A stretch of DNA of 64,000 bases from Rhodosporidiobolus odoratus (Eukaryota; Basidiomycota; Microbotryomycetes; Sporidiobolales; Sporidiobolaceae): positions 992,001 through 1,056,000 of the forward strand of contig JAOANU010000007.1 of NCBI GenBank assembly GCA_034387635.1, read 5' to 3'. Positions 33,621-57,297 of this stretch are shown here, one piece after another (position 1 is the stretch's first letter; the number at the start of each line of letters is the position of its first letter). The notes under the pieces are model-generated. The model saw only the letters and a program-made list of their open reading frames with translations. It was not told the origin of the DNA and did not search any database. The position numbers and the translations under genes were made by a program.

Positions 33621-34972
33621 ATGCAGCCTAATCATCCAGAACCGACTCTGCACCAAAAAGTTGTCGGGCTCGCTTACAAGAATTCGCTGATCGAACCCTT
33701 TACAACCCTCAAGTTTCCGAGTCGGTCGGAGTACGACGTCGTCCGGAACTCGTGGCCACAATGGCAAGAAGACCTTTTCCTCGCCCTGCCCAAAAAAGAA
33801 TGGGACACCTGGCCTTACGAAGCGCAGTATGCTGCCAGGGGTGAGATGGTAGAGCTGGACAAGCGGTTTGAAGACCGCAAGCGGAAGGGCAAGTTTGAGA
33901 GGGCGACGGATGTGGTGAAAGAGATGGTGCGTTCCCTTTGCCTTGCTTTGTACCGTCCAGCTGATACAACATTGTTCTTTCGCGCCGCAGGATACACCTC
34001 AATATTGGGCGGGGCGTCTGCGAAGCCATTGTCCACCGACTATGGAAGTGAGGGCTCGAACCTCTACTATTTCTCCTAGACACAGGCTCACACATTCCCC
34101 TCTTTCCTCTATGCCTCTCTATAGCGCGTGTACCGCTCCGAAGCGATTTATGAAGCACTCAACAAGATCAAGCTGCAGGTGGTTTACAACACTCCGTCCA
34201 ATAAGCGCTTCAAGACCTGGCAAGACGACCTACTCATCAAACTACAGCCACAAATGTATGAGTGGCGACAAAACGCTCGGTGTCATGTAGTGATAGTGTT
34301 AGCGCGCCTAGCCCGAATGGCTGAGACTACACGGGCTCACGGCGAGTCAGCAAGGTACGCTTTGGATCAACTTGTGCGTTGCCGATTTCCTCATCTTCGA
34401 TCCTGATCCACTCAGCTGCTCATACTGACTCACCTCCGAGTCCCCAGCTCGAGGAAGCATCCTTCGAGAAGATCATGGCTGAAGTAGCGAGTCTTTTTCC
34501 TTCTTTCCAAACCTCCTTTCCACCCGCTCATAGTACTGATGAACATTGTCACCTCTCATCACAGCACAGGCTGCACCCTATACCTTACACCGAGCCCTGT
34601 CCGTGGCTCAATCTCGCCGAGATATAGAAGAAGCCGACCGAGCCAAAGCCAATGCCGACTCAAAAGCGAATCAGAATGTGGAGATGACTCCCCCAGATCC
34701 TTATGAAGAATTGAAGAAGGTGTGTCCGCCCATGGTTGTTGGCTCTTGTCAGCCCGGGTTCATTCAACCTTACTCAGTACAGTGCTAAGCTAAACCTTCT
34801 GGTCCATTCTTCTCTTTTTATTTCTCTCTGTTCCCCAACATCTGTACAGCGCGCCTTAAAGGAGCCCTTCGAGCATCCGCTTTTCGAACGGTCCTTGGCC
34901 AAATCAGCTCTCTACTTTCCCGGTTGCCGCGCATCAAGGTCTTCCAGACCTCGAACACTACGACACTATTAG
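33621..34972 (+). CDS. W/LP-module family protein 1 (unknown function)
   Basis: About 275 residues from six or seven exons: 33621-33926, 33991-34047, 34125-34374, 34449-34485, one from about 34571, and a last exon ending TAG 34970-34972. It contains two related ~40-residue modules: SWPQWQEDLFLALPKKEWDT with WP and a Gln/Ala helix, and later FKTWQDDLLIKLQPQMYEW followed by VVIVLARLARM. After them comes a helix with AQSRRDIEEAD. No signal peptide or membrane span is seen. I recognise no named domain. Two further members are in this window, at 35971 (broken) and 57297 (minus), which supports this as a genuine protein family. Exon order and splice phases agree among the members. Shares its upstream region with gcn2. 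Confidence 0.72.
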
Positions 34973-35123
34973 CGGAACAGCAAACAGTGAAGAGCAGGGG
35001 ACTGTCCGGGACACTACCTCCAGCATAGACACTCGTCACCATAATGCCGTGTAGGAATACTGTACTGTATGTTCAGGGTATGAATTGCGAGGCGACGAAC
35101 CTAGAAGTCGAGAAGGGAAAGAA

Positions 35124-35374
35124 GACGGCGTTGACGTTCTGCGAACTGAAAGCGCAATGTGCCTCTTTTCTTTGCGCACGGCTCGAGCAGTGCTTGCCCG
35201 GACTTTTGTCCTCAGAATCGTCGCCGTAAATTGGTGCCGAGGTAAAGGGTCGAAGGTGGTTCCTTGGCGTGCGAGGGCAGTACCTCTACATCGGCCGCGC
35301 GGAACAGTGAGACTGAGCTAGCTACCTTGCAGAACCTCGATCTCCTTCTCCTGCACCTCGGCTGGTGCTTCCAT
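35124..35374 (-). pseudogene. Duplicated 5' fragment of gcn2
   Basis: A diverged copy of the first exons of gcn2. ATG 35374-35372 begins MEAPAEVQEKEIEVLQ, against [16 protein letters not shown] in gcn2; then an intron, a short AIYGDD exon, and the start of the third exon (NVNAV) at about 35143, after which similarity is lost. No kinase sequence follows, so it cannot encode Gcn2; at most a short peptide. Matching non-coding sequence continues upstream, to about 35530. It marks a segmental duplication of the gcn2/W/LP-family divergent pair. Confidence 0.8.
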
Positions 35375-55360: not shown

Positions 55361-56099
55361 CACTGTCGGAGGCGTTTATATTGAATCCTTAATTACATCT
55401 GGGAGGGCCGTTCTCGATGCTCTTTGATTGCCTTACTGTGTTGCCATATATTCTGTTATTGTGTAATGATCATATTCCCAGGCGGGTACCCACAAGGTGA
55501 GGTAGAAAGCACTTGAGAAGCAGCGCTTCATGTGATGTCCTCCGCGGCCGACGCTCGAATGGCGCAATCTTCTGCTGACGAAACAGATTGTACGGAGTCG
55601 AATCCAACACAGACGGCGGCACCGGTGACAACGTGATCTATCGGCGTTTGCGCCAGCACTCAAACAAGAAACCCTGAGCATGACCTTCTCAATCTAGCTT
55701 TGCTTGTTTTCCCGTCGCGGTCAAACAGCCTAGTCCTGCAGCTGTTCCCGTAGCGCAATTTTTGGAGGCGTTGCAGTGCATGCTGGCTCGGCCCATGCTT
55801 GGACCCAAAATTGACCTTTATATCGTGCGTCGCTGATCCTTTCCGTCTCCTTTCTTCCTCTGTCAGCGATACGTTACCTTGCGCAGGCTCAACGCTGTTG
55901 CCAGTGCTCCAGCCGGTCCGTACCAATATGATGAAAGGGTGAGTACAACCGTGCAGTTTCCAGTATCACTAATTCGCTACCCCTACTATCAGAACGGATC
56001 GGAACGGAGTATGCCAGGCGACGTAGATGAGCGGCTGCGGGACCGCGGCAAATAGCGCGAAAACTTGGCGAGAGACTGCTCGGACCTCGAATTCCATTG
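55361..56099. other. Intergenic region between Xbp1-like gene and W/LP family gene 3
   Basis: About 740 bases between convergent genes. Nothing recognisable on either strand. Confidence 0.4.
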
Positions 56100-57297
56100 A
56101 TGCGGTCCTTCGAAACTCTGTAAAGGATGGGGATCAGCAGCAAGGAAGCTTGGTCAGTTCCGGCTCCTGTGCTGGGGAATTCGAACAGCAGACGGGACGA
56201 AGAGGACACAAAGCAGGACGTACAGATCGTCCTGTGTCACGCGAAGGGTGCTGATAGGCTTGGCTGGCGCCTGCACCTGTATCCGTCGGTTGTATTCCTT
56301 GATCCCGGTTCTGGTCCCGCTGAGACTGTGCTTCCCTGAGACGATCCCATAGGACCCGATGCGGTTGCGCCTGTGCGGCAGACAGGACAGCGTCAGTATA
56401 CTATATGGTAGGTACGAGTAAGACTCAAAGGAAGTGAGTAAGGATTGGGACCTGCCAGAGCTGCAGCTCGTCTAGTAATTATATCAAAGGATACTTTGCC
56501 CCCCTGCAGCCAACTGCGTGATCAGTAGTTGTGGTGCGTGTTCAGCGAAGAGCACTTACGAGCAAAGAGGTGACCTGCATTGATGTTCTCTGTTTCGTGA
56601 CCACGTCTGCAGCTAGCCCTAGGATCGCCTCGGGTACTTTGTCACGGACCGACTGGTCCTGCGTGTACATCCAAGGCTGTAGCTTTTGGAGCAAACTTAC
56701 CCGCCACTCGGCAAACCCAGGTAGCGACTTTTCATCAGGATTGACGCGGGCTCGAAGACTGGCAATTGCGGCGTTCACGGCATGGGAGCGATACACGCGC
56801 TGGACAAGTTGCAGACCGGAGAACGAGCCTGAGGTGAGTTATAAGAATGTAGACACGATACAGGTGCGAGACACCCTCACCGGGAGTGTCCACGAAAGTT
56901 GTAGGCGCATCCGCGACATAAAGTTTTGCGGGGTCCCCTGCATGAATGGTCAAGAAGCAGTCAATCGCTTGAAACAAAGCACAGCGAGATGAAAACGCAC
57001 CAGCCCGATTTTCAAATCTCCCGCCCGCTTCCATTTCGCCTTTTCGCTCTTGAAGGCTGTAACCAACACGTTCACCTCCTCCTTTGCTTCCTGCTGTAAA
57101 GCCAGAGGCCAAGTAGCCCATTCCTCCTTGGGTAACACACTCCAAAACTTCACCCTCCAATCCGTCCACTCTTGGGCAAGTTTGGCTAGTTCTGTGTCTT
57201 TGCCGAAATTCTTCCAACCGAGCAGGAGGAGAGGTGTTTCGAGTGTGCTTTGGTATGCGAGGCCATTGACTTCTCGCCCCTCTGGTGACGGCGGCAT
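56100..57297 (-). CDS. W/LP-module family protein 3 (unknown function)
   Basis: Start taken at ATG 57297-57295 (MPPSPEGREVNGLAYQ), which aligns with family gene 1; an in-frame ATG at 57330 is also possible. Module one: EWTDWRVKFWSVLPKEEWAT, then WP and a Gln/Ala helix. A short variable exon pair follows, then RVYRSHAVNAAI and module two, FAEWRVSLLQKLQPWMYTQ. Downstream, a small exon and AQPHRVLWDRLREAQSQRDQ match the last conserved part of gene 1. The frame stays open through module two, unlike gene 2. The 3' end is approximate, because the final exon could not be fixed. No known domain, signal peptide or membrane span. Opposite strand to the other two members and 20 kb away. Confidence 0.68.

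Follow-up and report, generated by a model that had tools for sequence, protein, structure and literature searches.

The wtf proteins of fission yeast are multi-pass membrane proteins. The wtf genes are clustered, multicopy, multiexon, and limited to one lineage, with dead copies and fast change (on wtf genes, see PMC9562144, PMC6526906). The gene family analyzed here, found in a 64,000-nucleotide stretch of DNA (the window, C7:992001-1056000, in a 24.8-Mb genome of 45 contigs), resembles this Schizosaccharomyces family in behavior only: both are multicopy, multiexon, lineage limited, and fast changing. Unlike the wtf membrane proteins, the proteins described here showed no membrane-like segment in the nine sequences scanned. 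The family is real, unnamed, narrow in range as far as searched, and larger than a preliminary description of the window had noted. In sequence, it matched no family in the libraries searched; in behavior, it is one more fast-evolving lineage-specific family.

Results

The preliminary description had proposed genes at 33621(+), 35971(+), and 57297(-) that share an exon order and W/LP patterns, and both open exons and conserved columns bear this out (genes A, B, and C) (Table 1). In each gene, a module-one exon is followed by a phase-0 intron, a short exon, and a module-two exon; A and C continue through another short exon and a charged linker to a terminal exon that encodes an SLAK motif and a basic tail. 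The exons were joined by hand, and some junctions are tentative. One member had been called broken, and gene B does carry one in-frame TAG in module two, so it is probably dead.

Table 1. Exons of genes A, B, and C, the other family loci, and the GCN2-like copy (window positions count from the first letter of the window)
Feature	Sequence	Position	Strand	Remarks
Gene A exon 1, module one	window	33621..33926	+	open frame, conserved with B and C
Gene A exon 2, short, phase 0	window	33991..34047	+	consensus splice ends; start like other members'
Gene A exon 3, module two	window	34125..34373	+	
Gene A exon 4, short	window	34448..34490	+	tentative ends
Gene A exon 5, charged linker	window	34565..34719	+	tentative ends
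Gene A exon 6, basic tail with SLAK motif, stop	window	34850..34972	+	
Copied 5' piece of GCN2-like gene	window	35212..35460	-	73% identical over 247 bases
Gene B exon 1, module one	window	35971..36258	+	open frame
Gene B exon 2, short	window	36326..36400	+	read by eye
Gene B exon 3, module two	window	36487..36738	+	in-frame TAG 36607-36609
Gene C exon 1, module one	window	57001..57297	-	open frame
Gene C exon 2, short	window	56881..56937	-	
Gene C exon 3, module two	window	56560..56799	-	
Gene C exon 5, linker	window	56224..56370	-	tentative start; exon 4 between exons 3 and 5 not placed
Gene C last exon, basic tail with SLAK motif, stop	window	55989..56117	-	
942-kb member	C7	~942.45 kb		outside window
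951-kb member	C7	~951.25 kb		outside window
Locus F	C1	~0-0.7 kb	-	cut by contig end, before module three
Locus G	C1	21.3 kb		
Locus H	C1	24.1 kb		frame break in exon 1
Locus I	C1	32 kb	-	
Locus J	C1	117 kb	-	frame break in exon 1

The family had been taken to have three members, which proved too few. Whole-genome protein searches exon by exon, together with profile searches of the 194 kb around the matches, identified at least 10 loci, five on C7 and five within the first 118 kb of C1; 10 is a lower bound because only top-ranking candidates are scored in the genome search. Profiles built from A, B, and C matched loci outside the window with E values down to 4.8e-20. Neither locus I nor locus J had been used to train the profiles of the second profile search, which covered the 194 kb around the matches and one 6-kb stretch. 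Locus I was recovered with the module-one profile (E = 1.9e-5), and locus J showed modules one, two, and three in the correct order (E = 3.2e-5, 6.9e-5, and 2.8e-6); I also aligned with G along its length at 20% identity (E = 2.6e-7). On reversed frames, run as a control, the best E values were 0.92, 2.4, and 7.4 for the module-one, -two, and -three profiles of the second search and 0.049 among five profiles overall (the first module-two profile). Three of the 10 loci look broken, namely, B with its stop and the 24-kb and 117-kb loci of C1, whose frame breaks could be assembly errors. The family showed no linkage to mating type, since STE3 matches lie on C17 and the Homeobox_KN match lies on C20, whereas the family lies on C7 and C1.

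Module one of A, B, and C has 19 invariant columns, including W-x-x-W, LP, W-x-TWP, and Q, and all three genes have a module-one exon with W-x-x-W ... W-x-TWP. The preliminary description had given both modules a common W/LP pattern; this holds for the W-x-x-W of module one, but module two of A, B, and C reads F-x-x-W ... KLQP, with the first W of the pattern replaced by F. Module-two exons begin RVYRS or RVHRS, and it is the Q codon of KLQP that is the in-frame stop in gene B. Outside the window, the TWP of W-x-TWP varies to TRP (942 kb), AWP (24 kb), and TWT (32 kb) and is lost at 117 kb.

A basic C-terminal tail with the motif [SA]LA[KRHP] is present in all six full-length models (A, C, 942 kb, 951 kb, 21 kb, and 32 kb) and in the deposited protein P0007 (see below). 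The motif lies in SLAKSALYFPG in A, SLAKSSQYFPG in the 942-kb member, and SLAKFSRYLPR in C and reads SLA[HPR] in G, H, I, and J, the tails at the 24-kb and 117-kb loci having been read by eye. In the 951-kb member, the tail (ALAKD) is tentative, and so are the last exons, because the deposited protein P0006 ends in the presumed intron 4. An SLA tail was not located in gene B and was not visible in F, where the contig ends, or in P0006.

The C1 genes have a third module, which a profile trained on G and H detects in those two loci and in J; in I, module three is placed by position only. Profile-profile comparison gives good support to an internal duplication that would relate modules one and three (score, 35.3; probability, 87%; 30 shuffles, ≤13.5; reversed, 16.2). 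For modules one and two, which the preliminary description had thought to be duplicates of each other, the comparison is suggestive (score, 22.0; probability, 18%; 30 shuffles, ≤15.3; reversed, 9.2), but the score falls to 16.2, against a shuffle best of 15.0, without the divergent members I and J. Modules two and three scored 12.6, indistinguishable from the 12.1 reached in shuffles.

Among 5.8 billion proteins, the only relatives were two unnamed Rhodosporidiobolus odoratus proteins: JCM11641_003556 (P0006), the orthologue of the 951-kb member of C7, and JCM11641_003298 (P0007), the orthologue of the 24-kb member of C1, with identities over the compared exons of 93% (176/189) and 91% (155/171). 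Both are annotated as hypothetical proteins. R. odoratus is a red yeast of the Sporidiobolales, and the genome analyzed here probably belongs to a close relative of it. An exon-only query matched none of three candidates at E values up to 1, and the two later searches matched 1 of 7807 and 1 of 7557. Although A, C, and the 942-kb member were among the queries of the search with 7807 candidates, its single match was the 951-kb orthologue; those of the other members were missed, are unannotated, or are absent from the proteins searched. P0007 has three modules and an SLA tail, as in the family; the short exon 2, part of the gene models here, is missing from both deposited models. The family had been called lineage specific, and its range is indeed narrow among the proteins searched, although the search relies on shared short words and on gene models and absence elsewhere is no proof.

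The absence of a named domain, also asserted earlier, is borne out in Pfam, NCBIfam, and PDB, none of which gave a convincing match. Pfam returned no family for five exon proteins at E values up to 10 or for four full-length models at E values up to 1. No Pfam-A match exceeded its curated cutoff where the cutoff was shown (the table for model set A4 gives cutoffs for its first member only), there was no NCBIfam match, and the PDB sequence search gave nothing better than an E value of 0.29. The matches to DUF2785 (E = 0.0033 on P0007, below the curated cutoff, and E = 0.054 on one A4 member) and to the Skp1 dimerization domain (E = 0.0029 over 18 residues of one member, also below the cutoff) were weak, each found in one sequence per scan. 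Structure prediction of the module had been proposed as well, and it yielded an all-helical model for module one (mean pLDDT, 78; pTM, 0.64), with helices at residues 10-22, 26-29, 35-54, 66-88, and 94-101; fold searches with this moderate-confidence model gave no confident match. For P0007, with its three modules, the predicted structure was poor (pLDDT, 53). A hydropathy scan of nine sequences, including a partial one, revealed no membrane-like stretch, the highest 19-residue mean being 1.43.

A 7.8-kb inverted duplication with 96.6% identity (C1:1-22000) carries locus F at one end and locus G at the other; its inner part is repeated further, and its divergence is patchy, as after gene conversion. 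On C7, the 5' end of a GCN2-like gene (~26777-32940, minus strand) precedes gene A on the opposite strand (32779-33026), and the copied piece of it precedes gene B in the same way. Because this piece precedes both genes, A and B are probably a tandem duplication of a unit made up of the GCN2-like 5' end and a family gene. The GCN2-like gene has an RWD match just over the cutoff on a stretch joined across an intron, with protein kinase and anticodon-binding domains farther along; the RWD remnant in the copy before B is below the Pfam cutoff.

Further duplications and ordinary genes also lie in the window. Positions 2837-9175 are a 92% identical copy of C7:953780-960109 and carry an EF-hand-like open frame (weak, below the cutoff), and positions 11865-15480 are a 99.6% identical copy of C7:988811-992428, a very recent segmental duplication. 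A direct repeat (50606-50878 and 51999-52284) is 80% identical. Open frames at 16496-17773, 46890-47897, 58723-59313, 60871-61713, and 63321-63917 have the ordinary Pfam domains NLI-type phosphatase, FAD/NAD-binding, CAP, NmrA, and TauD.

The pair F/G gave one test of selection, F being cut by the contig end. The two copies differ at 6 of 188 positions in the leader, 5 of 131 in introns, 36 of 309 in exon 1, and 4 of 45 in exon 2, so that exon, intron, and exon alternate between high, low, and high difference. Across 183 codons, there are 58 amino acid-changing differences per 431 sites and 10 silent differences per 118 sites. The amino acid-changing differences exceed those in leader and introns (11/319; P = 1.3e-6) and in introns alone (P = 0.0014), and silent differences are also higher than noncoding ones (P = 0.04); because the duplication is patchy, gene conversion may have lowered the noncoding difference and some of the counts. 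Over all codons, the excess of changing over silent differences was not significant (dN/dS, 1.65; P = 0.16).

We then separated core from noncore codons, using the other paralogues to define the core. Of the 183 aligned codons, 156 were classified; the remainder were the 15 codons of exon 2 and 12 codons for which fewer than three paralogues supplied a letter. In noncore codons, pN was 0.181 (18.1%) and pS was 0.048 (4.8%) (P = 0.009), this pS resting on three differences and being lower than that of core codons, which had a pN of 0.061 and a pS of 0.111. The threshold of 0.6 was fixed before any other was applied, and across five thresholds from 0.4 to 0.8 the P values were 0.008 to 0.014 against silent sites of the same codons and 0.007 to 0.028 against all silent sites of the pair. 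The single neighboring frame used as a control, a 430-codon open frame in the same duplication arms, is constrained (pN, 0.022; pS, 0.094), with a ratio of changing to silent differences of 21:31 versus 58:10 for the family (P = 3e-7). Charge is altered at 21 of the 43 changed residues, and, with classes defined on the F/G pair itself, changes affect 3 of 71 sites that are hydrophobic in both copies and 28 of 100 that are polar in both. These data support the earlier description of the family as fast evolving, for a pair on a contig other than that of A, B, and C. The C7 paralogues behave like coding genes, with pS above pN in all 20 exon comparisons and dN below dS in all 12 with a computable dS, the other 8 being saturated.

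Discussion

Starting from the observed modules, exon phases, copy number, duplications, and noncore excess of amino acid-changing differences in F/G, our tentative reading, to which we assign a probability of roughly 0.42, is that these are young soluble helical recognition or adaptor proteins set against a changing partner and under diversifying selection. The family would comprise lineage-restricted proteins of about 300 to 375 residues, each combining two or three exon-encoded helical modules with a basic C-terminal tail that carries the SLA motif. A soluble, intracellular nature is suggested because the proteins have no hydrophobic segment, and the helical fold is extrapolated from the moderate-confidence model of module one. 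The conserved W, L, and P residues would form the core that holds each small helical bundle together, and noncore positions would be surface. The polar outer face may then be the working surface, and by analogy it would bind a partner under continual change, which might be a parasitic element, a rival allele, or a fast-evolving regulator, for example; that it binds at all, and that conflict is the underlying cause, is what we infer. Copies would arise by tandem and segmental duplication and diverge at the surface, and some would die. Targeting or anchoring could be the task of the basic tail.

A dispensable duplicated family under relaxed constraint might also change fast, decaying by drift without diversifying selection, and the three broken-looking loci and the whole-gene F/G dN/dS, which is not significantly above 1, agree with this. 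We nevertheless rank it second, as rather unlikely: core residues are kept and noncore amino acid-changing differences exceed silent ones, the frame, exon order, and tail are kept in six full-length models, and two loci have orthologues annotated in R. odoratus. One of these belongs to the 24-kb locus, whose gene thus has an intact counterpart. Gene-model artefacts or chance open frames might be suspected from hand-joined exons with tentative junctions and from the R. odoratus models, which skip exon 2 and, in P0006, end in a presumed intron, but this is scarcely credible given at least 10 loci with like exons, annotated R. odoratus proteins, the excess of pS over pN throughout the C7 exon comparisons, and the reversed-frame control.

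Selfish killer or poison-antidote drivers behaving like the wtf genes would fit the copy number, clustering, dead copies, and diversification; they rank third and are improbable here, however, as hydropathy found no membrane-like segments in the nine sequences. A mobile-element protein taken over by the host could explain copies on two contigs and a narrow range in the proteins searched, but several introns at conserved places, the lack of any mobile-element domain in the Pfam scans, and the tying of two copy pairs to duplications that carry other sequence make such an origin very improbable. Returning to recognition proteins under diversifying selection, a bolder version, which we hold to be doubtful, is that they form a new class of fungal conflict proteins in red yeasts, with W/LP helical modules and a diversifying polar face that would serve in self/non-self or anti-parasite recognition or act as a selfish driver.

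The unusually fast change of F/G on what is likely the outer surface is as in proteins that keep up with a changing partner. If this reading is true, red yeasts would possess a gene family for conflict or recognition in which modules and exon logic are defined, and its intact and dead copies, R. odoratus orthologues, and measured noncore excess would make the family experimentally tractable.
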